From: Plectonema radiosum NIES-515 | Lineage (GTDB): Bacteria; Cyanobacteriota; Cyanobacteriia; Cyanobacteriales; Nostocaceae | NCBI RefSeq assembly: GCF_025753815.1 | Contig: NZ_JAOWRF010000211.1 | Location: 1-64,000 of the forward strand | Direction of reading: 5' to 3' | Length of the DNA stretch: 64,000 nt | Shown: positions 13,576 through 25,133 of the stretch, one piece after another | Layout: each line of letters starts with the position of its first letter | Numbering within the stretch: the stretch's first letter is position 1 | Notes under the pieces: model-generated | Told to the model about the DNA's origin: nothing | What the model saw: only the letters and a program-made list of their open reading frames with translations | Databases searched by the model: none | Translations under genes and position numbers: made by a program

Positions 13576-13634
13576 TTAAAATAGGTGAACTTGGAGCCAA
13601 CAGTAGAGCAATTAAGTCTAAAAACTGAGGAGAG

Positions 13635-13742
13635 CTATTTTTTCCAAGGTAGCTTAGTACCCATCTCAGTTAGCGCCGAGAAGACGAGATACAAGACGAG
13701 TACACCAATACTAATAATAAAAATAAGTAGGTCTTTATTCAT
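13635..13742 (-). CDS. Candidate 35-aa single-membrane-span small protein
   Basis: A 35-codon ORF on the - strand: MNKDLLIFIISIGVLVLYLV, then FSALTEMGTKLPWKK. One membrane helix (about residues 4-24) is followed by a short polar, basic tail. This is the architecture of many small cyanobacterial subunits of photosystems, cytochrome b6f or NDH-1, but I cannot match it to a named one. The ribosome binding site is weak (AGGAA about 12 bases upstream). It could be a chance ORF; the amphipathic pattern makes a real small protein more likely than not. Confidence 0.45.
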   Translation of the reverse strand: MNKDLLIFIISIGVLVLYLVFSALTEMGTKLPWKK

Positions 13743-13864: not shown

Positions 13865-14437
13865 TTATTTTGCAGTTCTGACACAAGGCGCTTCATTATT
13901 GGAAGGAGGGTCAGCGTAAATTGCTAAAGTGCTATATTCGGGGCTACCCTCGCCATATATTACTCGAAATGCATACAACTTGGTTTTGCCTTGTTTTTCA
14001 GTAACTACTGTTAAAAGCGTATTACTAGTATTCGGTAATCCAGCAATTTTCAGCTTGGGAATTCGTCTAAGTTGAATTACATTCGCGGCTGAGTTTTTAC
14101 AATCTCCCTGACTAACATTACGGTTTTGACCAAACTGCATACAGATCGGACCATCAAAATCTATAGTTACCTGTGAAGGGTCGTTTAACCAAACTTTCTT
14201 AATTATTTCTCCAGCTTGAATAAAACTTAAGTTTGTTCCTTGTTGATACCAAATATCGATCTGAGGTGTTGCTCCCCCCAAACCCTGTGCTTGGCAAGAA
14301 AACATCGAACGAAGAACGGCATTATTAGCTAAAACACGACCTGCAACTAATAAAATTGCAGTTGAAAAAATCAAGGTAGCCAGATGTAATAAATAAGATT
14401 TATCTGGAGTATTTCCTTGTGATGTCTCGTTTTTCAT
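13865..14437 (-). CDS. VirB9/TraK-like candidate, last gene of the secretion-like cluster
   Basis: A 190-residue protein from the chosen ATG at 14437; an upstream ATG at 14470 adds 11 residues. A hydrophobic anchor or signal lies at about residues 17-38 (LLHLATLIFSTAILLVAGRV). The rest is beta-rich: NLSFIQAGEIIKKVWLNDPS, later IQLRRIPKLKIAGLPNTSN, then LLTVVTE and LYAFRVIYG. That order (a 'conditions the value' strand set, then a TVVT strand and a YAFR strand) resembles the N-terminal domain of VirB9/TraK. No C-terminal VirB7-binding domain is visible, and Cys49, Cys103 and Cys115 may form disulfides. It sits just after the VirB10-like gene. The family call is inference. Confidence 0.45.
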   Translation of the reverse strand: MKNETSQGNTPDKSYLLHLATLIFSTAILLVAGRVLANNAVLRSMFSCQAQGLGGATPQIDIWYQQGTNLSFIQAGEIIKKVWLNDPSQVTIDFDGPICMQFGQNRNVSQGDCKNSAANVIQLRRIPKLKIAGLPNTSNTLLTVVTEKQGKTKLYAFRVIYGEGSPEYSTLAIYADPPSNNEAPCVRTAK

Positions 14438-14562
14438 GGCTGCAAAGATTGAAATAGATAAATAGTTCAAGCAAATTAAATGCGGGCGTTATTAAATGAT
14501 ATCATGTCATGCATTAATAAAAACACCTTAACCCTTCTAGAAACGTTCCGCCGAATTAGTAA

Positions 14563-14583
14563 AGACGTTCCGCCGGAACGTCT
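14563..14583. repeat. Dispersed AGACGTTCCG palindrome
   Basis: Ten-base arms AGACGTTCCG/CGGAACGTCT with a one-base centre form a palindrome in the gap between the VirB10-like and VirB9-like genes. It belongs to the same family as 3358-3382 and 24935-24960. Confidence 0.6.
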
Positions 14584-14661
14584 CTACCAGAGATTAGGTA
14601 TTTCATGTCTTAATTCAGCAACGCCGAAATTTTTAATGTTTCATTCTCAAAATTATAAATC

Positions 14662-16371
14662 TTAAAACTGTGTTGTTTGATTGATATATACTTCAATTTC
14701 TTTGCCTGCGGGCAGAAACCAAACGTTAGTGCGTTGCGCCAGTCTTTTAGAGATATTTTGTTGATTGCGTTGGGAAATTTGTTGAGCTATATTAGTCGCA
14801 CCACCTTCCAAAACGCCGGCTAAGATGTTGCGTCTGGTGTCGGTGGTTTGAAAACAATTATTAGTAACAATATTAGTTCCATTAGTAGTAGTATTATTAG
14901 CAGTATTAGTACTATTATTGACGCACTGGATTCTGGTATCAGGACGATTAAATATCTCTGCTGCTTTACCAGCACCATTCAAGACGAATACTCCTACATC
15001 CGCTATCCCTACCCCAGACCCTCCTTGATTGGAATATTGGCTTGCGATGAGAGGTTTGCCTTGAGAAGCGCGAATTGTTATTGCATTTGGCGGTAAGCTT
15101 CTTTCGGTGAAGGTGTTATTATTTGGGAGAATAACTTTGACTACATCCAACTGTAGGAAGCCTTGCTCGGAAATAGAACGAACTTGAGCTAAGAACTCGG
15201 TTTTAGCAGGTAAAGCGATCGCACCATCCACGGATTTTAATGGTTCTTTCAAACGCACTACAAATACATCTTTGCCGCTTTGGTCTTTTTTATCATCCCT
15301 ACTGGTTGACCTAGTAGTTTCCCCAAATACAGCGGTCGCAAATACAGCTTTTGCCTTAGTTCCTACAGCTACGGATTTCGCGGTCTGCTGTTTTGTTTGG
15401 CTGACCGCAGGGGTTGACTCTTCTTCTGGTTCGTCGTCTGGGTTGGTATTTGTTGCCTGTAACCGAGTATTATTTACAGGTACAGGTGTAGGTGTAGGTG
15501 TAAGTGTAGGTGTAGTTGCTTTAACACTATTTTCAGTGATAGTAACCATACCGTAGCTACCTAATTTTGCTAACTTTGCCCATTCCTCAAGCGGATCTGG
15601 TGTGGGTTTGGGAGTTGCTGTAACTATTGGCTGAGTGTTTGCTGCAACTATCGGCAAAGGTGATGGTAAAATTTTCGAGTTAGCAGGCTTTTGTGGAATA
15701 GGCTTTTGTAGAATAGGCTTTTGTGGAACAGAGGGTACCTTAACGACACGCTCAACAGTGACTACGCGAGGCACATAAACTGTTCGCACGGGTGTTGGTA
15801 TCCTTTGCAGTGGTATCCTGACTGTATTGACAGAAGCTGATGGTTGTGGTTGTGAAACTGGTCGAGATGCAACCTGAGGAGAAGGCGTTGGTTTTTGAAG
15901 TCTCAGCTTTTGTTGTGCTGCTTTCACCGCTTCTGCTTGTTCAGTCAGGGCTAATTTAGTTTTTAAAGTCTCTAGTTCTGATTGTAGCTGTTGCGGGCGG
16001 GAATCGCTGATTGGTTGCGATCGCGTAGAAACAGAATTATTCTTTTTTGGCTGTTGCTTGCCAGTGTTCATTAGCTGCGACAAAAACACCCCAGCCACCA
16101 AAACTATACCCAAAGTACCAGCACCCACCAAGCCTAACTTAGCAAAGGGGTTAGATGAGAGAGATTCCTTAGTGCGAACTTCTTGAGGTTCAGACAAAGG
16201 TTGCAACGAAGAAGTTGATTCTTCTGCTGCTTCTTTGGTATTAGCTTCGGAAGATTCTTCTACCAAGCCAACCAATCTTGCCATCCGTGATTCCCAATCT
16301 AAAGTGTCCAATTCGGGTGGACTAACTAGATTTTGTGGCAAATTTTCTGAAGGAATTGAATATCGAGTCAT
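14662..16371 (-). CDS. VirB10/TrbI-like type IV secretion scaffold protein
   Basis: A 569-residue protein with the VirB10 layout. A cytoplasmic N-terminus of about 78 residues is followed by one membrane helix at 79-100 (LGLVGAGTLGIVLVAGVFL). A long Pro/Thr/Gln-rich periplasmic linker (about 105-330) carries KPIP and PTPTPTPVPV repeats. A C-terminal beta-rich domain (about 335-569) ends in NVWFLPAGKEIEVYINQT, the usual VirB10 closing motif (LPAGxExxVxVNQ). VirB10 bridges inner and outer membranes in type IV secretion. The Asn/Thr-rich insert near residues 485-515 (TNTANNTTTNGTN) is at the place of the variable antenna region. It is the second strongest family call in this cluster. Confidence 0.75.
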   Translation of the reverse strand: MTRYSIPSENLPQNLVSPPELDTLDWESRMARLVGLVEESSEANTKEAAEESTSSLQPLSEPQEVRTKESLSSNPFAKLGLVGAGTLGIVLVAGVFLSQLMNTGKQQPKKNNSVSTRSQPISDSRPQQLQSELETLKTKLALTEQAEAVKAAQQKLRLQKPTPSPQVASRPVSQPQPSASVNTVRIPLQRIPTPVRTVYVPRVVTVERVVKVPSVPQKPILQKPIPQKPANSKILPSPLPIVAANTQPIVTATPKPTPDPLEEWAKLAKLGSYGMVTITENSVKATTPTLTPTPTPVPVNNTRLQATNTNPDDEPEEESTPAVSQTKQQTAKSVAVGTKAKAVFATAVFGETTRSTSRDDKKDQSGKDVFVVRLKEPLKSVDGAIALPAKTEFLAQVRSISEQGFLQLDVVKVILPNNNTFTERSLPPNAITIRASQGKPLIASQYSNQGGSGVGIADVGVFVLNGAGKAAEIFNRPDTRIQCVNNSTNTANNTTTNGTNIVTNNCFQTTDTRRNILAGVLEGGATNIAQQISQRNQQNISKRLAQRTNVWFLPAGKEIEVYINQTTQF

Positions 16372-16562
16372 ATAGTAATTTTAAATTTAAAATTCAATAA
16401 TGACATTATGGCAGGCACCTTCAGCGGTGAGTATAAATTCAACAAAGTGCGATTAGAACGAAAACTCCGCGTCCTTTTGCACTTAGCGATCGCGCTCCTC
16501 TGCGTTGAAAAACGCGCTCGGATTAATGCTCTTCTGTACTTAGTATAGTTTAACTGAAAATT

Positions 16563-17225
16563 TTATGAACATTTTTTATCTTGTATCTCACAGATATTAT
16601 AGATTTTTAATCTAGCTTCACCAAGGCGATAAGCTGCCAAGTTCAAAGGTAACGGAGAGTTTGGTAGTGAAGCAGCTTGTTCATCAATTGCTCTCACTAA
16701 AATTATTTTATTAAACGAAACTGACTTTCCCAATCTATCAGAATTTGTAAAAATTATTTGATTAGCAAACATTTCCACTTTCCACTTTCCATCTTCTATT
16801 TTTGTGGGTTGAGAAATACTTTGTATAACCAATACATTTTCAGTTCCTTTACTTAAGTTTTCAGTGGGACTAATTTCTGATTGTAATTTTGGCTGTAATT
16901 CATTCGCTATTAGTTCAGAACTAACTTCCCAGACAGTTTTTGGCTGCTGTTGCTGCGACCAAGTAAGCATTAAGGTCATAGTTTCACCAACAAAGCGCCG
17001 AATTGTCTCTGGATGTCGCTCTAAATTCTGTTTGGGGTCTACTGTTATGGCATGTCCATCAGCAAGTTGCACTAAGCTTTGAGGTGTTAATCGTCGTTGT
17101 AACTGCTGCAACATAGACCAGTGGAAAAACAGTACTAGTAAAGTGAGCAGATGCAAACCAAATGTTGCGACGGCAAATAATGGTAGAATACCGCTTTTCT
17201 TATTTTCCGACTTAAGTATCTGCAT
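16563..17225 (-). CDS. VirB8/TraE-like inner-membrane protein, copy 2
   Basis: A 220-residue bitopic protein with a short cytoplasmic N-terminus, one membrane helix (about residues 15-37, PLFAVATFGLHLLTLLVLFF) and a periplasmic domain. It is paralogous to the adjacent upstream gene: both share IFAIATFSLHL-like membrane sequence, a VQLxDG segment, an ExMxxFVxxTMTxMxxWS segment, and a late LVRAxD block. The architecture (one helix plus a ~180-residue periplasmic domain) and position between VirB6-like and VirB10-like genes fit VirB8/TraE. I see no decisive VirB8 motif, so this remains inference. Confidence 0.5.
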   Translation of the reverse strand: MQILKSENKKSGILPLFAVATFGLHLLTLLVLFFHWSMLQQLQRRLTPQSLVQLADGHAITVDPKQNLERHPETIRRFVGETMTLMLTWSQQQQPKTVWEVSSELIANELQPKLQSEISPTENLSKGTENVLVIQSISQPTKIEDGKWKVEMFANQIIFTNSDRLGKSVSFNKIILVRAIDEQAASLPNSPLPLNLAAYRLGEARLKIYNICEIQDKKCS

Positions 17226-17275
17226 TAATATTCTCCCAAATAATACAACGCAAAAACTCTCTCAAACTCTTATCC

Positions 17276-17335
17276 CTTCTCCTTACGGAGACGCTTCGCG
17301 AAGGCTTCCTTGGCGCCCTTGGCGGTTCGTTTTTC
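17276..17335. repeat. Dispersed cyanobacterial repeat
   Basis: The sequence ACGGAGACGCTTCGCGAAGG followed by CTTCCTTGGCGCCCTTGGCG lies in the 133-base gap between the two VirB8-like genes. I recognise it as a common intergenic repeat motif of Nostoc-group genomes. A related fragment (GCGTTCGCGTAGCGTGACGG) occurs near 43060-43079. Confidence 0.55.
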
Positions 17336-17358
17336 ATTATCATAAATAAATTTAAATA

Positions 17359-18177
17359 TTATTTAATAAAATTATCAGTTTTTTGTCTATTCCCGCATAC
17401 ATTTATATCTTGATTCTGGTTATTGTATTCATCGATTAAACATAAGTTACGAATTTCGTAAATTTCTAGTTGATCGGCGCGGACGCTATAAATTGCTTTT
17501 TGCAGAACAGTGGTATTATCAACTTGTGGATAAGCAAAAGAATCTACCGCACGGACAAGTAAATCTTTATTAAAAGGAGTTACTATTGTTCTATTGTCAG
17601 CTTGTTTTTTTTGAATCAGGTCGGCTACCATCCCAACTCGCCATTTACCCAAACCAATTTTTTCTGGTGGATAAACTCGCTTAATAACTAACTGTCCGGA
17701 AATATTTTGACTGGGGTTATTATAAAAAACTTCTGGTGGTGTCATTTCTGCAATTTTACTTAAGAAACCTTTGCGGAAATCTTCAGATAAAGCAAAACTG
17801 GCTATCCAACTGGTGGTGCTAATTTTTTTGCTACCCCCTCGTGAAGTTTGAATTGATATTCCTGCATCTGCTTGAGGTTGTGTGACTTCTTCGATAGATT
17901 GCGGTGGTAGTTTTCCCGACCAATTAAACATTGATGTCATCGTTTTACTGACGAATTGTTTCATTGCTTCAGGTTCTCTTTCCGCATCAGTAACATTTGC
18001 TGGTTTCCCATCTATCAGTTGGACAAAGTTGGGAGGTTTTTTTGAACTGAGTTGGCGAATATTTATGCCTTGAAATATTAATAAAAATATAGCTGAGAGA
18101 TGCAAACTAAAAGTAGCGATCGCAAAAATTGTTAAAATACTTCCTGTTCGTTGTCTTTTCTCCAGTAAACGTACCAT
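17359..18177 (-). CDS. VirB8/TraE-like inner-membrane protein, copy 1
   Basis: A 272-residue protein with one N-terminal membrane helix (about residues 14-37, ILTIFAIATFSLHLSAIFLL) and a periplasmic remainder. It is a paralogue of the next gene downstream, and about 50 residues longer mainly through an insert around residues 95-150 and a polar tail ending in NQNQDINVCGNRQ. The shared PNFVQLIDGKP and FVSKTMTSMFNWS blocks mark the common periplasmic domain. It follows the VirB6-like gene by 24 bases, which implies co-transcription. A VirB8 role is inferred from context and architecture. Confidence 0.5.
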   Translation of the reverse strand: MVRLLEKRQRTGSILTIFAIATFSLHLSAIFLLIFQGINIRQLSSKKPPNFVQLIDGKPANVTDAEREPEAMKQFVSKTMTSMFNWSGKLPPQSIEEVTQPQADAGISIQTSRGGSKKISTTSWIASFALSEDFRKGFLSKIAEMTPPEVFYNNPSQNISGQLVIKRVYPPEKIGLGKWRVGMVADLIQKKQADNRTIVTPFNKDLLVRAVDSFAYPQVDNTTVLQKAIYSVRADQLEIYEIRNLCLIDEYNNQNQDINVCGNRQKTDNFIK

Positions 18178-18201
18178 TTAGTCATCCCCCTTACTTGAGA
18201 T

Positions 18202-19251
18202 TTATACCCTCTCCTTCACCCACGAAGCCGTATTGTTAATAGCACTAAAGACTGCAAATCCCCCAGCAGCAGCTACAAATAAAGATACAATCGGGGCTAA
18301 AATTCCCAGAAAAATTATAAACCACATTAAGTCTGGATCGGCATTCACATCTTGTCCCGGTCCATTAACAATAACTGCGGCAGTTAATCCGGCAATAATA
18401 TTAAATGAAATCTTAGAAATTCCTATCGATAAAAAGCCAGTCAGCCATGCAAAAATGGGTTTACCAGCTACAGGTAGTAAAGATGCACCCACAGCTAACG
18501 GTCCCAAAGCTGCTATCAGCAACATTGTCGCTTCTATCAAATTTTGGAAAGCATATTGCAATGAAACTAAAAAGTTTTTAATACTAATTTGGACTGTAGA
18601 ACCTAAGAAAGAATCAAATGAATTTTCGGAGATGCTAGCTGTATTATATGTAATATTATTTACTTTATTTTCTAGTCTATCTATCCAAGGTTTATCACCG
18701 TATAAATTTCTATATTCCACCCAAAGGGTGTCAGCTTTTTCCTTAGCTTTCACAAAGCATTGATTTTGTTGCTCACCAGTTAGTGACTGACAAGGACGCA
18801 ATAAAGAACCGGCTATTTCTTCACCTACAGTCATATTCAGTGCTTGCTGATAAGTTTGATTAGCGTCTGCTGTTGTGACTACTTGCTGATTCACCGTATT
18901 CAGAAAATTCCTTACTCCTAATGTTAAATTGGACAATACAGTGCCGTTTCCGGAATTAGTTAATAGTATCACTACTACAAAAGGCCAAATTAAAGCTGAT
19001 ATTGGACGAGAATAATCGCTATTTATAGCATCTTGTAGCCACTGTACCATAAAAAACAGTAGGGTTCCTACGGCAAAAAAGACACCCAGATTTGTGATCG
19101 CTCCATATAAATTATTAATAGTATCATTTTGTAATAAATCTACCCATTGTTTATCCCAACCTTCGGCAATACTTCTAGCAGTTGTGGCTCCATTACCGAG
19201 AACATCATTTATACCGATTTGAATTAATAAAGTTGGGAAAATATCTTTCAT
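18202..19251 (-). CDS. VirB6/TrbL-like polytopic inner-membrane protein
   Basis: A 349-residue protein with about five to six membrane helices: residues ~50-70 (GAITNLGVFFAVGTLLFFMV), ~82-100 (ISALIWPFVVVILL), ~235-262, ~265-292 and ~310-340. Between the second and third helix is a ~120-residue soluble loop (about 105-225) with three cysteines. This layout matches VirB6/TrbL/TraG-N type channel components of type IV secretion systems. No catalytic motif is expected. The C-terminal PIVSLFVAAAGGFAVFSAIN is glycine-rich as in many VirB6 proteins. The call relies on topology and gene order. Confidence 0.55.
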   Translation of the reverse strand: MKDIFPTLLIQIGINDVLGNGATTARSIAEGWDKQWVDLLQNDTINNLYGAITNLGVFFAVGTLLFFMVQWLQDAINSDYSRPISALIWPFVVVILLTNSGNGTVLSNLTLGVRNFLNTVNQQVVTTADANQTYQQALNMTVGEEIAGSLLRPCQSLTGEQQNQCFVKAKEKADTLWVEYRNLYGDKPWIDRLENKVNNITYNTASISENSFDSFLGSTVQISIKNFLVSLQYAFQNLIEATMLLIAALGPLAVGASLLPVAGKPIFAWLTGFLSIGISKISFNIIAGLTAAVIVNGPGQDVNADPDLMWFIIFLGILAPIVSLFVAAAGGFAVFSAINNTASWVKERV

Positions 19252-19324
19252 TTCTATAGCTTTCCTTTAAAAGGAAGTTAAGGCTCAATTAAATTATGTA
19301 TGATAAGTGTAAATAAAGGTTTCT

Positions 19325-19382
19325 CGTAGTCAGGGCTTCAGCCCTTAAAAAGGAAGATTTGAGCGGTAAACCGCTCACTACG
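19325..19382. repeat. 58-bp composite hairpin repeat
   Basis: Outer arms CGTAGT (19325-19330) and ACTACG (19377-19382) enclose two hairpins: AGGGCT/AGCCCT (19332-19345) and GAGCGGT/ACCGCTC (19361-19376). A degenerate relative lies at 24994-25046. It fills part of the 157-base gap between VirB5-like and VirB6-like genes. Confidence 0.65.
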
Positions 19383-19408
19383 TAAGAATACGTTATTAAT
19401 CATGATTT

Positions 19409-20209
19409 TTAGTTGTTAACTTTTCTGCCAAACAAATCTGCTTGAGAAGTGGTTCGCAAAAGTCGCGCTGCTTCTGCGGATGCATCTACTCTTCGAGCAC
19501 GATTTGTATCTTCTATTTGTTGAGAAAGACTTGCGAGATTTAAGTTAGAGTATTGCAAAGATTGATTTGTCTGTATTGTTTGACCAAGTGTTTCGGCTAC
19601 AATTTTTACTTGTTCGCGTTGAATTTTAGTTTGTTGGTATTGTAAATTGGTTTGCTCGCGGATACCAAGCAGTTGTCCTACTTGTCCTGCAAGTGAAGCA
19701 TTACTCGCAATTTTAGCAATTTGATCTTGAATATCATTGAGAAAAGTTTGCTGATTTTCGTCTAGGTCTTCCTTAAACACACCAATATTTTCTAGTCTGT
19801 TTTCAGTATCTTGTAACTTTGTTTTTGACCGAAGTTGACCATTTATACCCAATACACCTGCGGCTGAACTACGAGTAATTAAACGATTTATTTCATTACT
19901 AACTAAAGTTGAACGTACCACAGGATTATTTTCAAACTTACCTGATAGAGAGTTGAGAAATATATCACTAGTAACTCTTTCTCCAGCGTCAACAGGATTA
20001 GGTATACTCAATTCTCCTGTTGCACCAGTAATGGCATTTTGAGATTGAAATTCTACAGGTTTTAAACTGTCGTTTACATTATTTGTTAAATAATTTTGTA
20101 AATCTGTAGAATATGATTGAAAATCAGTCCAAACTTTGCCTAGTTGGGCTGTTGCTGGTAGGATGATGAGGAATGATAGAGAAAGTGTCAAAAGGGTGAT
20201 TTTTTTCAT
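19409..20209 (-). CDS. VirB5/TrbJ-like secreted coiled-coil protein
   Basis: A 266-residue protein with a clear signal peptide (MKKITLLTLSLSFLIILPAT, cleavage near AQA/QLG). The C-terminal half (about residues 140-250) is rich in Gln, Glu and Leu, consistent with long alpha helices or a coiled coil (NLQYQQTKIQREQVKIVAET). VirB5/TrbJ proteins are exported, mostly helical minor components of the pilus or channel, and the position after the VirB4 gene is right for one. There is no sequence motif to prove it. The region around residues 75-130 resembles a mixed, less regular domain. Confidence 0.5.
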   Translation of the reverse strand: MKKITLLTLSLSFLIILPATAQLGKVWTDFQSYSTDLQNYLTNNVNDSLKPVEFQSQNAITGATGELSIPNPVDAGERVTSDIFLNSLSGKFENNPVVRSTLVSNEINRLITRSSAAGVLGINGQLRSKTKLQDTENRLENIGVFKEDLDENQQTFLNDIQDQIAKIASNASLAGQVGQLLGIREQTNLQYQQTKIQREQVKIVAETLGQTIQTNQSLQYSNLNLASLSQQIEDTNRARRVDASAEAARLLRTTSQADLFGRKVNN

Positions 20210-20296
20210 AGGTCTGAATCGTGAAAAAATATCTAGAAATTATATAGGAATTTTGTACTTTATTTTATTAAGTACTTCAATCATATTAAAGGCAAA

Positions 20297-20421
20297 ACCT
20301 CTCCCTGACTTTGACTGGTGTCAAAGTCGTCCCTCCCCTACAAGGGGAGGGAAATATACTCCCCGTTATGGAGGAAATGTACTCCACCTTCCCTACAAGG
20401 GAAGCGGGTTGGGGGGTTAGG
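20297..20421. repeat. Dispersed hairpin-rich repeat block
   Basis: The 231-base gap between VirB4-like and VirB5-like genes holds three stem-loops: GACTTTGAC/GTCAAAGTC (20307-20328), CCCTCCCCT/AGGGGAGGG (20331-20351) and TTCCCT/AGGGAA near 20390-20403. A GGGTTGGGGGGTTAGGTC tail follows. It reads as a dispersed intergenic repeat rather than a gene. Confidence 0.6.
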
Positions 20422-20440
20422 TCTTTTTAAGATTGCCATG

Positions 20441-23185
20441 TTAACTACCACGTAATGAAGCCACTAACTGACGTGCAAATGTAGAAATTGCTTCATATTT
20501 ATCGCTGTGTTCTCGCATTATTTTACTCCGTGCAGCTTGTTCATTGGGGTTGTTAGCAACTACTGCTAATTGTTCGTAACCTGGATAATAGCGGCAAAAG
20601 GTATAAATACCGTTATTATCTAATAGCCATTGGCTATAAATGCCTTCTTTGCGAGGAAAGAAGCCTTCTGAAGCATTACGAGAAATAATTTCACGGGGAT
20701 ATTTTAATATTTGCATGAAACTATCGACGGCAACGGGTTGAATGCGTCCGATTAATCGTGTTGATAAGTTTTGTAAAATTTTCGATGCAGCTTTAGATTT
20801 GGCGATGGTATCGGGGTCTTGTGCTGATAAAATAACTCTAATTCCAGCTTTTGCACCATTGGCACAAATTCTGCCAACTAAGTCAGCAATTTGGTCAAAT
20901 TCAAATAGAATTGGTGCTTCATCAATGAAGAATATGGAAGCTGGACTGCTAAGTGCGCGTCGTAATGCTGCTGAATAGGCACTTAAAGATAGGATTGCTG
21001 CATCTTCATTATCTGAGAGGTTTCTCAAAGCAAAAACCAAAAGTTGTGCATCGGTGGGAAAGCTAGATGGTGCAGAAATCGATTGTCCGACACGACTAGA
21101 AAGCCAAAATCGCAAGCGCAATTGAATTTGACTTAAGGCATCTTCAACTCTGCCACTTACAGAATTAATTTGTAGATGTTCTGTTGTGCAAAAATAAAGA
21201 AAATCTCTTAATGTGGGGGTTTTCTGCCAAGCTGGAGTGCCAAATCCCCCTGCAATTGCGATTCGATATCGCTCTTTTATCCCTTCATCAGCAAAGAAAG
21301 CTGTTAAAGCCAAATTAAGAAGCGATCGCACGGTTTGCGATAACAGTGGATTTTCTGTAGATGAGCCTAAAACCATTGTCATTAAGGCTGATTCTAAAAA
21401 GGCAGTATAATCGAGCAGACGATCGCGCTGTTGTTCTGGATCTAGCGATCGCAAGTCTGGCTGCTCAAATAAGTTATTCGATTGTTTAGAAATATCAAAA
21501 TATGCTCCACTATCCTCCATAAACTCTGTATAGTCGGTGAAGGTAGATGTACCATCTGGTTTGGGGAAATCTAACGCCACTACCGGAATACCATGCGCCA
21601 AAGCTTGAGTTAATATTCCTGACACCAATACTGATTTACCAGCACGAGTTGTTGCGAACAGCGCTAAATTTTTATGCTCGTTAAATAAATCTAAATATAC
21701 GGGTGTTCCTCCCTCTTCGGCAATCAATTCAAAACCTTGGCGATCGCCTACTTTCGTTAATACTAAAGGCATTAATCCGGGAACTTCACTTGTTAAATAC
21801 AACTGCCGACGGTTGAAGGGTTTTGCTAACAAACCTTCCCAAACTATCGGTAAAGTTTGCAGCCAAATTTTCCAAGCATATTCTGTTTCTCTAATTACCC
21901 TTGCTGGACGTTGAAAACAGTTTTCAATATATCTTGTTGCTTCGTCTAATTTCTCCACACTTGGACGATGTACAAAAATCGCTATCCCCGTATAAATAGG
22001 TACTGCACCTTCATATAATTGTTCTTGTGCTGCAACGGATTTTCTTAATTTTAATTGAGCGTTGACATCAATAGTTCGGCTTTTTTCTTGAGCCATTGTT
22101 GCTGTCACATTCGACTGCTTCAGCACTCTTTGCAAAGTGTTTTTTACTATTGCTGGATTTGCCGCAGTTAACTCACAAAAAATCTCTGTATCAACAACTG
22201 TTTCTCTTGCTAACAATTCCCATAAATAGCGCAGTTGAGAAGATTTATTCTGCCAACCGCCAGGTTTTTCTAAAAATGTTAATGCACCAATATAATTATT
22301 CTTAACATGAACCCACGAGCGATCGGCACAAGGTACACTAGATTCCATCAGCAAAGTTGTACTGTGGATATTATCTACAAGTAATTTGGTACTAGCTAAA
22401 TCTGAATAACCTTCTTCGTGCAGTCCATTTTCATCTAAAGTCATTAATTGGGGAATATCTATCGGTGGAGTATCATTAAATCTTCTCCAGATTTCTCCCC
22501 AAAGTTCCTCACTAGTTAATGGCTTAACATCCAACGCCATTTGATTAGATAAAATTTGTTCCCAGCGACAAAAACCTTGTATGTAAGCATTGCTCACAAT
22601 GGTTTCTATACGCTGATTTTCAACTTCTGCCATATCTCCTTTGAATTTCAACCACCACAATTCAGCTTTGACTAAAAGCTTTTCTATCGAATCATCTGTA
22701 TTGGTGGAGTTTGGTTCTACGGTATAAGTGACATAAATTTTGAGAAATTTAGGTTTGCGAATACCAGAAGCAGTAAGTTCTTTTGTTCTTGCTCTTTCCG
22801 CCATTAACAAGTATTTTATATCTTTTGATGGCGTTTTTTTGATAATTGAGTTTAGTTCTTTTTGTCGCTTTTCATCGGAACTAAAAGAACTCAAATGAAA
22901 GGTTATTCTTTCATTGCCGGGAATGTCTTTTAAACCAGATTCAATATTATTAACAATTACATCTATTTGGTCTGTTCTTAAAGTTGTATGAATACCTCGA
23001 CATTCAAAACCAAAAACAAAGCAAAATCTATTTTTTTGAGTTCCCTTTGTCAAAAGATAAGCACCTATATCACGTCCACCAAGTGAGATTCGCAACATTG
23101 TCGCTAGGTGTAAAGCATCTTCAAATGGTGTTAATCTCTCACTACCTGCGACGCCGACGCTTTGTTTTCCGATTTTTTGCTTCAT
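20441..23185 (-). CDS. VirB4/TraC-like conjugation ATPase
   Basis: A 914-residue ATPase from the chosen ATG at 23185; a start at 23248 would extend into the upstream gene. The Walker A segment is ATTRAGKS (about residues 511-518), with alanine in place of the usual first glycine. Walker B is IFFIDEAP (about 751-758), followed by the sensor region GIRVILSAQD. The large N-terminal domain (about 1-480) and C-terminal RecA-like domain are the VirB4/TraC arrangement. VirB4 powers assembly of type IV secretion systems at the inner membrane. The start overlaps the VirB3-like gene by 44 bases, so they are translationally coupled. This is the most secure member of the cluster. Confidence 0.8.
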   Translation of the reverse strand: MKQKIGKQSVGVAGSERLTPFEDALHLATMLRISLGGRDIGAYLLTKGTQKNRFCFVFGFECRGIHTTLRTDQIDVIVNNIESGLKDIPGNERITFHLSSFSSDEKRQKELNSIIKKTPSKDIKYLLMAERARTKELTASGIRKPKFLKIYVTYTVEPNSTNTDDSIEKLLVKAELWWLKFKGDMAEVENQRIETIVSNAYIQGFCRWEQILSNQMALDVKPLTSEELWGEIWRRFNDTPPIDIPQLMTLDENGLHEEGYSDLASTKLLVDNIHSTTLLMESSVPCADRSWVHVKNNYIGALTFLEKPGGWQNKSSQLRYLWELLARETVVDTEIFCELTAANPAIVKNTLQRVLKQSNVTATMAQEKSRTIDVNAQLKLRKSVAAQEQLYEGAVPIYTGIAIFVHRPSVEKLDEATRYIENCFQRPARVIRETEYAWKIWLQTLPIVWEGLLAKPFNRRQLYLTSEVPGLMPLVLTKVGDRQGFELIAEEGGTPVYLDLFNEHKNLALFATTRAGKSVLVSGILTQALAHGIPVVALDFPKPDGTSTFTDYTEFMEDSGAYFDISKQSNNLFEQPDLRSLDPEQQRDRLLDYTAFLESALMTMVLGSSTENPLLSQTVRSLLNLALTAFFADEGIKERYRIAIAGGFGTPAWQKTPTLRDFLYFCTTEHLQINSVSGRVEDALSQIQLRLRFWLSSRVGQSISAPSSFPTDAQLLVFALRNLSDNEDAAILSLSAYSAALRRALSSPASIFFIDEAPILFEFDQIADLVGRICANGAKAGIRVILSAQDPDTIAKSKAASKILQNLSTRLIGRIQPVAVDSFMQILKYPREIISRNASEGFFPRKEGIYSQWLLDNNGIYTFCRYYPGYEQLAVVANNPNEQAARSKIMREHSDKYEAISTFARQLVASLRGS

Positions 23186-23510
23186 GGTTAACGAATAGTA
23201 TGCTTTGATAACGAGCAAAGCCTCTAGTCCAAGCAGGAACACCAACAAATTTACTTAAAAAACGCCAACTCCTACCACCTGTTAATATCCACCAAGTTGC
23301 CATTCCCCAAATAGTAATTAGTACCGTCCACAACCATTTTTGAAAGTCGTCTGGAAAAATTCCCCCAAAAATTCCATTGATGATAAAATAAGCTGCTAAG
23401 GCAATAAGCGTCCAAGGAAGGACTTGATCGGCGGGAATTGGTCCTAATGAAGGTTGGCTTCCTAAAATTTGATTGACTGGACGAAAGTCTTTTTCTTTGT
23501 CTTGAGTCAT
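23142..23510 (-). CDS. VirB3/TrbD-like small membrane protein
   Basis: A 122-residue protein with two close membrane helices (about residues 31-52 and 60-78: TLIALAAYFIINGIFGGIF and LWTVLITIWGMATWWIL). A cytoplasmic tail ends in the strongly basic KNRKTKRRRRR. Size, two-helix hairpin and position directly before VirB4 match VirB3/TrbD/TraL, which in some systems is fused to VirB4. The start at 23510 follows a GAAAA-rich region without a strong ribosome binding site. The overlap with the VirB4 gene supports coupled expression. Confidence 0.6.
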   Translation of the reverse strand: MTQDKEKDFRPVNQILGSQPSLGPIPADQVLPWTLIALAAYFIINGIFGGIFPDDFQKWLWTVLITIWGMATWWILTGGRSWRFLSKFVGVPAWTRGFARYQSILFVNHEAKNRKTKRRRRR

Positions 23511-23549
23511 GGAAAATTTTTCAGCTTTTTTTCATTTTATCTAAATAAA

Positions 23550-24176
23550 TTATGGAGTACTATTAGGAGTGCCAATTACAAAGCCTGTGAGAACATCAGC
23601 AATTGTGACAGCGACAACTACTAATAAGGGAGTTCTAGCGATAGTTTGCCAATCTTCATCTTTGCGAACTGCATTAATAACACCAATCAAAGAAACTGCT
23701 ATGTAAAGTAGGTAAAGTGCTCGCAACACGTTGAATATTAAACTAACTGCTTGGGTGCCATTGTTTGCTCCTGCATCTCCAGTTGTGGTTAGAGTCTGTT
23801 TAAAGAAATCTTCGGCTTTCTTAAAAAATTGGGCTTGTGCGGGAACTGCAAAATAGTCTAACCAAAATAAACTCAGGACGATGGCTACTGCTAAGATTTG
23901 TAACAATATAAGCGATCGCCTGGGTAGATGAATCTGCTGCCCAATTTGCTGTATAGTTATTGTGATTAAACTACCTACAAGTAGACAAAAAAGCAGGATA
24001 GGGCTTTTCAGGCTGATAACGCTTATAAATACTGCACAAGCAATCAAAAATGGAACAGATGAAATCAGCCGAGAACGCCAGTATTCGACTGTTCCTGTCA
24101 ATTGACGAGATATTTTGCTCGCACTACTAGTCAAGGTTTTGAGAAAAATTATCTCATGAATACTTTGTCTGGACAT
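23550..24176 (-). CDS. VirB2/TrbC-like pilin candidate with long N-terminus
   Basis: A 208-residue protein from the chosen ATG at 24176; longer starts at 24215 and 24254 are possible. Two helices occur in the N-terminal half. The second ends in LDYFAVPAQAQFFKKAED, an AQA-type signal-peptidase site. After it come about 85 residues with two helices (LIFNVLRALYLLYIAVSLIG and LLVVVAVTIADVLTGFVIG) separated by a basic loop (NAVRKDEDWQTIAR). That processed part has the VirB2/TrbC pilin layout. The N-terminal extension of about 100 residues with its own helices is unusual for a pilin. As first gene of the cluster it holds the expected position. The call is inference. Confidence 0.5.
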   Translation of the reverse strand: MSRQSIHEIIFLKTLTSSASKISRQLTGTVEYWRSRLISSVPFLIACAVFISVISLKSPILLFCLLVGSLITITIQQIGQQIHLPRRSLILLQILAVAIVLSLFWLDYFAVPAQAQFFKKAEDFFKQTLTTTGDAGANNGTQAVSLIFNVLRALYLLYIAVSLIGVINAVRKDEDWQTIARTPLLVVVAVTIADVLTGFVIGTPNSTP

Positions 24177-24283
24177 GAATTTTACTGTTACTGGCGACAA
24201 ACATATTTTATACATTATAGAAGAAGTAGCATAAAAATTATTCCTACTAGGCATAACTGCCAGTATTATAGTTAATTTATTCC

Positions 24284-24598: not shown

Positions 24599-24807
24599 TC
24601 CGAGAGGGATTGTAAAGCCCTGTCTCATACCTAAACCAAATAATCAGACTAACAATATAGTTAAATAAATTCTAAATTTATATTGATTTTTACACTTAAA
24701 AATTAAAAGACGCGATACCCAAGCGTCTCTACAAAAGATATCTCCAGAGTCATACGTAGAGACGTTGCATGTGCCACGTCTAATCAAGGGTTTCGGGCAA
24801 CGCATAT

Positions 24808-24850
24808 AACAACGCTCTCCCCCGTCTTTAAAGACGGGTTTTATCCCTAT
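24808..24850. repeat. 43-bp dispersed hairpin repeat, copy 2
   Basis: Same element as at 7421-7463, in the same orientation, with one base of the palindrome arm lost (ACGGGT instead of ACGGGG). It lies in a 530-base geneless stretch (24599-25128) that holds almost only repeats. A partial copy of the next element precedes it at 24787-24806. Confidence 0.75.
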
Positions 24851-24870
24851 TAATTTGTGCAGATGTCTAA

Positions 24871-24913
24871 AGGGTTTCGGGTAACGCATAGTTAATTTTC
24901 GGAAATGCCTATT
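24871..24913 (+). repeat. 43-bp direct repeat, copy 1
   Basis: The sequence AGGGTTTCGGGTAACGCATA, then GTTAATTTTCGGAAATGCCT and ATT, is repeated at 25091-25133 with one base changed (AAC to AAA). A partial third copy is at 24787-24806. Confidence 0.85.
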
Positions 24914-24934
24914 AGACGTTTCCGAAAAAGAATG

Positions 24935-24960
24935 TAGAGACGTTAAATTTAACGTCTCTA
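24935..24960. repeat. 26-bp perfect palindrome
   Basis: TAGAGACGTTAAA meets its exact reverse complement TTTAACGTCTCTA. It is the most perfect member of the GAGACGTT/AACGTCTC family in this window. It lies between the two copies of the 43-base direct repeat. Confidence 0.85.
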
Positions 24961-24993
24961 AGTAGGAGAACTAAATTAAACTTCAGATCGGAG

Positions 24994-25046
24994 TAAGGAC
25001 TTTAGTCCTTAGAATGCTTTCCCAGAGGGATAAATCGCTCACTACG
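24994..25046. repeat. Composite hairpin repeat, relative of 19325-19382
   Basis: It contains AAGGACT/AGTCCTT (24995-25010), then GAGGGATAAATCGCTC (25025-25040) and ACTACG (25041-25046). This is the same modular plan as at 19325-19382 with diverged bases. Confidence 0.55.
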
Positions 25047-25090
25047 AACTCATATTTTATTTTATATTTAATTATGTCCACCTACTTACA

Positions 25091-25133
25091 AGGGTTTCGG
25101 GTAAAGCATAGTTAATTTTCGGAAATGCCTATT
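25091..25133 (+). repeat. 43-bp direct repeat, copy 2, supplying a stop codon
   Basis: It matches 24871-24913 at 42 of 43 bases. Its end lies across the 3' end of the carbamoyltransferase gene: the TAG stop (bases 25129-25131, read on the - strand) is inside the repeat. Confidence 0.85.

Follow-up and report, generated by a model that had tools for sequence, protein, structure and literature searches.

The type IV secretion cluster described here, from Plectonema radiosum NIES-515, is very probably a domesticated, coupling-protein-independent (non-conjugative) type IV secretion system (T4SS) derived from MPF_C, the cyanobacterial type of mating-pair formation. It occupies positions 13865-24254 of the window, the 64,000-nucleotide stretch of DNA that was analysed, as nine consecutive ORFs on the minus strand in the order VirB2-3-4-5-6-8a-8b-10-9. 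The channel half (VirB2, 3, 4, 5, 6, 8, 10 and 9) has been shown to be complete and under selection, and a device for DNA mating has, it seems, become a permanent tool of the cell. As an overall explanation, a domesticated MPF_C machine for the assembly of a pilus or the secretion of cargo from the periplasm is the one we consider reasonably likely; the original prediction had offered protein export or a pilus, and this is still the best reading. It is flanked by ordinary chromosome, with genes for a carbamoyltransferase and for an ABC transporter of sugars.

Gene content and relation to conjugative plasmids

The original prediction had placed nine minus-strand genes in an order close to VirB2-3-4-5-6-8-8'-10-9, and these ORFs are present and collinear with the clusters of conjugative plasmids (Table 1). 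The nine genes were compared with up to 14 plasmid and ICE clusters of the MPF_C type, which is characterised by the homology and order of its mating-pair genes (the alr7204-alr7211 set). All nine proteins have been found to be homologous to those of MPF_C plasmids (such as plasmids A and C of Trichormus variabilis ATCC 29413), where the same order, VirB2-3-4-5-6-8-10-VirB9-like, occurs with one VirB8 rather than the two of the chromosomal type. In the plasmids an alr7212-type protein and VirD4 come next and many also carry a relaxase, whereas neither of the first two accompanies the chromosomal cluster and no relaxase has been found nearby. On pCC7120alpha, another plasmid of the type, virB4 is alr7206 and virD4 is alr7213 (PMC8600333). 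The seven proteins other than VirB4 and VirB10 have no trustworthy Pfam or NCBIfam match, but every one of them has a positional counterpart, homologous to it, in the annotated conjugative clusters on cyanobacterial plasmids.

Table 1. Genes of the cluster, with coordinates in the window and the basis of each assignment.
Product	Position	Strand	Basis or remark
VirB2-like pilin precursor	23550..24176	-	ORF from 24254; likely start 24176, from the starts of relatives
VirB3-like short membrane protein, 122 aa	23142..23510	-	Plasmid homology and position
VirB4 ATPase	20441..23185	-	NCBIfam profiles, plasmid homology, Walker A/B
VirB5-like exported protein, 266 aa	19409..20209	-	Assigned by position
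VirB6-like polytopic membrane protein, 349 aa	18202..19251	-	Plasmid homologue at equivalent position
VirB8a, 272 aa, first VirB8	17359..18177	-	Plasmid VirB8 homology and tree
VirB8b, 220 aa, second VirB8	16563..17225	-	Predicted fold; duplicate restricted to this clade
VirB10/TrbI	14662..16371	-	Pfam TrbI and plasmid homology
VirB9-like, 190 aa	13865..14437	-	Predicted fold and plasmid homology; ORF from 14470, probable start 14437, from the starts of relatives

Individual components

In the VirB2-like protein, a long leader with two hydrophobic segments is followed by an AQAQ/F processing-like site, and alignment with chromosomal and plasmid homologues has revealed a further pair of hydrophobic segments that has a conserved RKDEDW loop. 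The protein has no Pfam match, and a homologue is found at the equivalent position in plasmid and ICE clusters. The VirB3-like protein matches the product of the plasmid gene preceding virB4 at 36-48%, and its gene overlaps the virB4 start; a weak match to Pfam TraL was obtained in one relative only. VirB4 itself matches the NCBIfam profiles TraC-F-type (1.7e-14) and VirB4_CagE (2e-13), both under the cut-off, and plasmid VirB4 at 52-60%, with the Walker A and B motifs kept in 88 of 88 relatives. Its start is assigned to ATG 23185 instead of TTG 23248 because the upstream stretch holds a stop in many relatives. PF03135 also misses a clear VirB4 of the window's genome, and its absence here therefore carries no meaning. 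The VirB5-like gene is conserved in 77 of 80 loci, its product begins with what resembles a signal peptide, and weak homology (22-32%) links it to the plasmid gene following virB4, its putative identity as VirB5 being given by position only. The VirB6-like protein matches the product of the equivalent plasmid gene at 31-41%, and one member of its family matches Pfam TrbL/VirB6 at 0.011. Pfam scans carried out member by member on the VirB2, 3, 5 and 6 families gave nothing convincing; these four predicted assignments, supported by homologues at equivalent plasmid positions, are probable on the grounds of position and plasmid homology.

VirB8a matches the single plasmid VirB8 at 32-46%, and in the VirB8 tree the a-clade has a support of 100/99, the a, b and a+b clades having 98-100. 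The AlphaFold model of VirB8b (pLDDT 81) matches the VirB8 structures CagV (Z 13.5) and TraE (Z 13.4) with an rmsd of 2.5-2.6 over 130 residues, which confirms, at the level of the predicted structure, the NTF2-like periplasmic domain fold of VirB8. This second VirB8 is found in 80 of 82 clade clusters and in none of 15 plasmid/ICE clusters; a single VirB8 duplication, at the base of the clade, marks the chromosomal family. VirB10 comprises an N-terminal membrane helix, a Pro/Thr-rich linker and a C-terminal TrbI domain (Pfam TrbI 2.5e-5, residues 335-569; 24.6 bits, with the curated cut-off at 35), and is homologous to plasmid proteins annotated as 'TrbI/VirB10 family protein'. The identities first proposed for VirB4 and VirB10 are thus borne out by profile matches, under the curated cut-offs, together with annotated plasmid homologues. 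The VirB9-like protein matches the product of the plasmid gene after virB10 at 32-44%. Its model (overall pLDDT 63, rising to about 80 within the domain) matches the TrwF/VirB9 N-terminal domain with a Z of 10.1 over 104 residues, as well as a chain of the X. citri core complex (9.8), CagX (9.2) and a Dot/Icm chain (8.6). It seems from the model to correspond to the VirB9 N-terminal domain only, and its 190 residues appear too few to accommodate the C-terminal domain as well. The predicted folds thereby agree with the VirB8' and VirB9 originally proposed. Profile searches with VirB8, the VirB9-like protein and VirB10 against PDB sequences detected no relative. In several relatives (G091, G133, G174, Gloeothece and Calothrix) the VirB9-like gene is detached from the cluster.

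DNA-transfer components and comparison with known systems

The window had been predicted to contain neither VirD4 nor a relaxase. By tblastn, no VirD4 or alr7212-type protein is detected in it, and the two have 0 matches beside the cluster in 104 clade sources (2.13 Mb), with queries that detect 7 of 8 (VirD4) and 8 of 8 (alr7212-type) plasmid/ICE loci. Two MOBV queries and one MobA/VirD2-like query for a relaxase gave no match in the window or the 104 sources, which says little, given that they were silent in the 8 plasmid/ICE controls too; a Pfam Mob_Pre search was silent throughout and is hence uninformative on this point.

Precedents exist for T4SSs that lack VirD4 (PMC12857230 section 20), and the clade possesses, like Bordetella Ptl, Brucella VirB and Bartonella Trw, a complete VirB channel without a coupling protein. 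Trw is derived from conjugation, has kept VirB2 and VirB5 in the absence of VirD4 and is thought to be an adhesion pilus (PMC12857230), although it is proteobacterial and has several VirB2/VirB5 copies where the present system has a VirB8 pair. Ptl and Brucella VirB secrete proteins without a coupling protein (PMC12857230), with cargo and host known, whereas no cargo candidate exists here. In the domesticated machine, VirB4 together with VirB3, VirB6 and two distinct VirB8 proteins would form the inner-membrane base, VirB10 and the short VirB9 would span the periplasm and outer membrane, and VirB2 and VirB5 would make a pilus. By analogy with these three systems, such an assembly may serve as a surface pilus or an adhesion pilus, or in two-step export, or both; in such export, cargo would reach the periplasm via the general secretion pathway. 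That its actual function is a pilus or two-step protein export has, in our estimation, about an even chance. More tentatively, it might constitute a fixed organelle of heterocystous cyanobacteria, derived from MPF_C and with a mixed VirB8a/VirB8b base, for contact-dependent protein delivery or adhesion, whether among cyanobacteria or with symbiotic partners.

Helicobacter pylori ComB also has a VirB set without VirD4 (PMC12857230), and its gene content, VirB2-4 and 6-10, is similar (PMC12857230 section 20). A DNA uptake machine of this type, in which a VirB channel lacking VirD4 and VirB11 leads to the periplasm and ComEC to the cytoplasm, is nonetheless unlikely here, as a putative VirB5 (assigned by position) is kept in the cluster whereas ComB has none, and about half of the family does without the cluster. 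ComB belongs to another lineage, and its DNA uptake has been experimentally shown. Competence in cyanobacteria is, moreover, generally credited to type IV pili and ComEC.

Genome-wide, 12 of 23 carriers encode TraG/VirD4-family proteins elsewhere, which could act in trans, all 12 being detected with Pfam TraG-D_C; a protein search and this profile found none in the other 11, four of which are one-contig genomes. The window's genome is among the former, since the check for VirD4 outside the window, suggested at the outset, located it in a complete MPF_C cluster on contig C221. These data could be accommodated by a helper conjugation machine, with relaxase and coupling protein borrowed from co-resident plasmids that are moved in trans. 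This is less likely still than DNA uptake, because such use cannot explain the upkeep of the cluster everywhere when 11 carriers have no VirD4, and because most VirD4-bearing carriers also hold a second, non-clade VirB4.

Distribution, phylogeny and selection

The cluster has been recorded in 80 named loci, nearly all from Nostocales. In the sample of the phylum, 22 of the 43 genomes from the family to which the window belongs (heterocystous cyanobacteria) carry it, and 1 of the 343 genomes from outside that family. This near-restriction to one mostly heterocyst-forming family would suit a cell-to-cell channel within the filament, for septal or heterocyst communication. Such a channel is very doubtful, more so than the helper machine: with about half of the family lacking it, the cluster is not a core heterocyst or septum part, and the unicellular Gloeothece carries it as well, on plasmid Cy782201.

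The chromosomal VirB4 proteins form one clade apart from the plasmid type (support 100), and this clade largely tracks the rpoC1 tree, with a Spearman coefficient of 0.79 (0/5000 permutations) and 9 of 20 splits in common where 0.14 would be expected, a vertical signal. The cluster is under purifying selection, with dN/dS values of 0.07-0.43 for eight of its genes. Flanks are common to most cluster pairs above 95% VirB4 identity, which indicates that clusters mostly stay in place, and differ among the closest relatives of the window, which indicates that relocation occurs.

The suggestion that the element had lost its mobilisation half stands as ancestry and fails as a description of a present-day relic, as intact, selected, coupling-protein-free copies occur across Nostocales with a VirB8 pair that arose once. 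Decayed cluster fragments do exist, on contig C370 of the window's own genome and on L063, but the idea that the cluster is the decaying rest of a conjugative element that had integrated, kept by chance, is refuted at the level of the whole clade and retains next to no probability, MPF_C ancestry notwithstanding, in view of the Walker motifs present in 88 of 88 relatives, the purifying selection, the retained VirB8 duplication and the vertical signal.

Relation to previous descriptions

The protein-secreting T4SSs known to a 2016 survey were confined to MPF_I and MPF_T (PMC4793230). A selected, coupling-protein-free MPF_C family in many heterocystous cyanobacteria would, if true, have been domesticated separately, in a phylum for which few dedicated secretion machines are known. 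MOBless cyanobacterial T4SSs have been known since 2011, when cyanobacteria were listed among the environmental carriers and protein secretion was suggested (Guglielmini et al., 2011; PMC3158045). They are likewise chromosomal, and they lack a relaxase; in the portion of that article available to us, the family, its gene content, VirB8 pair, distribution and absence of a coupling protein are not described, and we have found no published description of the present family. One VirB8 duplication defines the whole chromosomal family and, as a once-only event, offers a way to test the role of VirB8 at the channel base. As some carriers have no coupling protein at all, conjugation functions would not mask the effects of a knockout there.

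Neighbouring genes

No neighbour of the cluster is conserved across genera, and the surroundings therefore give no pointer to a cargo. Flanking genes for CemA, MltA, a G3P acyltransferase and a DUF3086 protein were considered and set aside, their conservation being confined to the Nostoc group. A 35-aa membrane peptide (13635-13742), encoded in a conserved block downstream, was rejected as a tenth component; genomes of the family have it with and without the cluster, mostly unlinked.

Composition of the Cluster and Gene Identities

The type IV secretion (T4SS) cluster has complete channel parts, has lost the coupling half of its plasmid counterparts, carries a duplicated VirB8 and is under selection. 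It is located in a 6.59 Mb genome close to Tolypothrix, Spirirestis and Hassallia, where nine open reading frames, all on the minus strand, fill 13865–24254. The families first assigned to VirB4 and VirB10 have been confirmed by profile matches, although these lie under the curated cut-offs, which indicates that both proteins are divergent. The VirB4 start was set at ATG 23185, since many relatives have a stop in the preceding stretch. Each of the other seven genes has a same-position homologue in the conjugative clusters of cyanobacterial plasmids, and VirB4 is 52–60% identical to plasmid VirB4. Position and plasmid homology, with faint Pfam support, also back the putative identities of VirB2, VirB3, VirB5 and VirB6 in the original prediction; one VirB6 relative has a Pfam TrbL match at 0.011. 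The structure predictions bear out the VirB8b and VirB9-like assignments: the predicted VirB8b fold (pLDDT 81) matches VirB8 structures (Z 13.5–12.5, approximately 130 residues). The VirB9-like fold is closest to the TrwF/VirB9 N-terminal domain (Z 10.1, 104 residues); the next seven matches, the weakest at Z 7.2, are without exception chains of T4SS core complexes (X. citri, CagX, Dot/Icm, F plasmid), with other folds only from Z 6.4 down. The VirB9-like protein seems too short for the VirB9 C-terminal domain, and its gene does not adjoin the cluster in several relatives. The chromosomal-type VirB2 precursor has an unusually long hydrophobic leader, of approximately 115 residues counted from the likely start, with two hydrophobic segments ahead of a processing-like site.

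Coordinates of the cluster, its neighbours and related loci in the same genome
Feature	Position	Strand	Remark
Membrane peptide	13635-13742	-	unlisted, 35 aa, MNKDLLIFIISIGVLVLYLVFSALTEMGTKLPWKK
T4SS cluster	13865-24254	-	nine genes
VirB10/TrbI	14662-16371	-	profile match 2.5e-5
VirB10 C-terminal domain	14662-15369	-	
VirB4/TraC	20441-23185	-	profile match 1.7e-14
VirB2 precursor leader	23832-24176	-	
Upstream repeats	24785-25133		three copies of a 22-nt repeat, 44-nt direct repeat
Second MPF_C cluster (L091)	C221:82797-95726		complete
alr7212-type homologue (L106)	C377, near 33229		convergent with relaxase gene

Distribution and VirB8 Duplication

A scan of genome contigs retained 80 named loci, nearly all from Nostocales, with VirB4 79–98% identical, several of them on near-complete chromosomes (Calothrix NIES-4105, C. 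brevissima NIES-22, Nostoc carneum NIES-2107). When the type is defined by VirB4 identity of approximately 74% or more across nearly the whole protein, it is present in 22 of the 43 genomes of the window's family and in one of 343 others (386 cyanobacterial genomes sampled). A Gloeothece relative is carried by the 880 kb plasmid Cy782201, typed as non-mobilizable. The VirB4 tree separates the chromosomal-type proteins, as a single clade (support 100), from those of plasmids and ICEs. The original suggestion of an element that lost its mobilisation half holds for the ancestry of the cluster, but the type is a chromosomal family and not a stray remnant. One locus (L063, Nostoc sp. T09) lacks VirB6, VirB8a and the VirB9-like gene, has a partial VirB8b and is apparently decayed.

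The plasmids have one VirB8, to which VirB8a and VirB8b of the window are both homologous. Of 82 clade clusters, 80 have the pair; the other two (L065, L071) are interrupted by contig ends. None of 15 plasmid/ICE clusters has it. VirB8a, VirB8b, the two jointly and plasmid VirB8 each form one group in the tree (support 98–100), which indicates a single duplication predating the split of the Gloeothece, G133 (a sampled genome outside the family) and Nostocales copies.

Loss of the Coupling Half

In plasmid clusters the order is VirB2-3-4-5-6-8-10-VirB9-like, followed by the alr7212-type gene and VirD4, with a relaxase in some. A tblastn search of 104 clade sources, which total 2.13 Mb with the window and represent some genomes twice, gave no match to VirD4, alr7212-type or relaxase proteins. 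In eight plasmid/ICE control loci, VirD4 queries were positive in seven and alr7212-type queries in all, which upholds the predicted absence of VirD4 from the window; the relaxase queries were silent, so that negative is weak. The phylum sample includes 23 carrier genomes, and 11 of them have neither VirD4 by protein search nor a TraG-D_C domain, four of these being single-contig genomes (G174, G284, G352, G382); the domain was detected in the remaining 12. VirD4 was matched in 18 of 21 genomes whose VirB4 types are all non-clade; in the other three the VirB4 matches are partial.

VirD4 does occur elsewhere in the genome, where the second MPF_C (cyanobacterial mating-pair formation type) cluster, which is complete, carries it along with VirB9-like and alr7212-type genes. 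Its VirB4 is 62% identical to that of the window, and further fragments occur on contigs C11, C84, C195 and C370. The alr7212-type family is unannotated (400–600 aa). Its homologue on contig C377 (30–37%) lies beside a relaxase gene in convergent orientation, and the 3.4 kb locus shows no VirB genes, so the protein probably belongs with the DNA-processing half. In seven PLSDB plasmid records (L086, L087, L089, L090, L097, L098, L101) MOB-suite calls the clusters MPF_T, whereas the literature assigns the cyanobacterial type to MPF_C; plasmid typing tables may thus mislabel such clusters.

Inheritance and Selection

Across 23 genomes, the VirB4 tree tracks the rpoC1 region (Spearman 0.79, 0 of 5000 permutations), with 9 of 20 splits in common (random mean 0.14). 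Compared with the window, RpoC1 is 91–99% and VirB4 74–98% identical inside the family. In G133 the values are 80 and 78%, and a VirB4 as similar as in-family copies despite the lower RpoC1 identity suggests that its cluster was gained horizontally. Flanking genes are mostly common to pairs with VirB4 more than 95% identical, and no cluster neighbours are conserved between genera. The nearest relatives of the window have different flanks, with the conserved block stopping abruptly near 13613 and 24410, indicating that relocation happens. The upstream repeats lie next to the site at which synteny with relatives is lost.

Simple pairwise dN/dS estimates against three close relatives, noisy from low dS, were 0.07–0.17 for VirB4, 0.10–0.16 for VirB6, 0.08–0.27 for VirB8a and VirB8b, 0.31–0.43 for VirB2 and VirB5, and 0.39–0.90 for the outlier VirB10, whose C-terminal domain gave 0.43–1.12 (approximately 1.1 in one of the three pairs, unlike other genes). 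The conserved ATPase motifs of VirB4 are kept in 88 of 88 relatives. VirB2, VirB5 and VirB10 are the parts nearest the cell surface, and their faster change would fit a contact role, which is only suggestive.

Possible Function and Precedents

The cluster proteins would assemble a channel that spans the envelope, in which VirB4 would be the only motor encoded in the cluster and VirB2 and VirB5 would form a pilus. Such a machine could act without a coupling protein, either as an adhesion pilus or on cargo collected from the periplasm. Ptl, Brucella VirB, Bartonella Trw and ComB likewise lack VirD4 (PMC12857230) and serve as precedents. Guglielmini et al. (2011; PMC3158045) defined the cyanobacterial VirB4 group and described MOBless T4SS, in cyanobacteria among others, with protein secretion as a possibility. 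According to Abby et al. (2016; PMC4793230), protein-secretion T4SS are known only within MPF_I and MPF_T. No description of the cyanobacterial VirB8-pair family turned up in text searches of an open-access library.

Membrane Peptide beside the Cluster

The single-helix peptide downstream of the cluster, with a conserved EMGTKLPWKK end, apparently represents an undescribed small protein family. In Desmonostoc and the Tolypothrix group it adjoins the cluster; it is unlinked elsewhere, and occurs in at least 23 of 44 genomes searched, whether or not the cluster is present.
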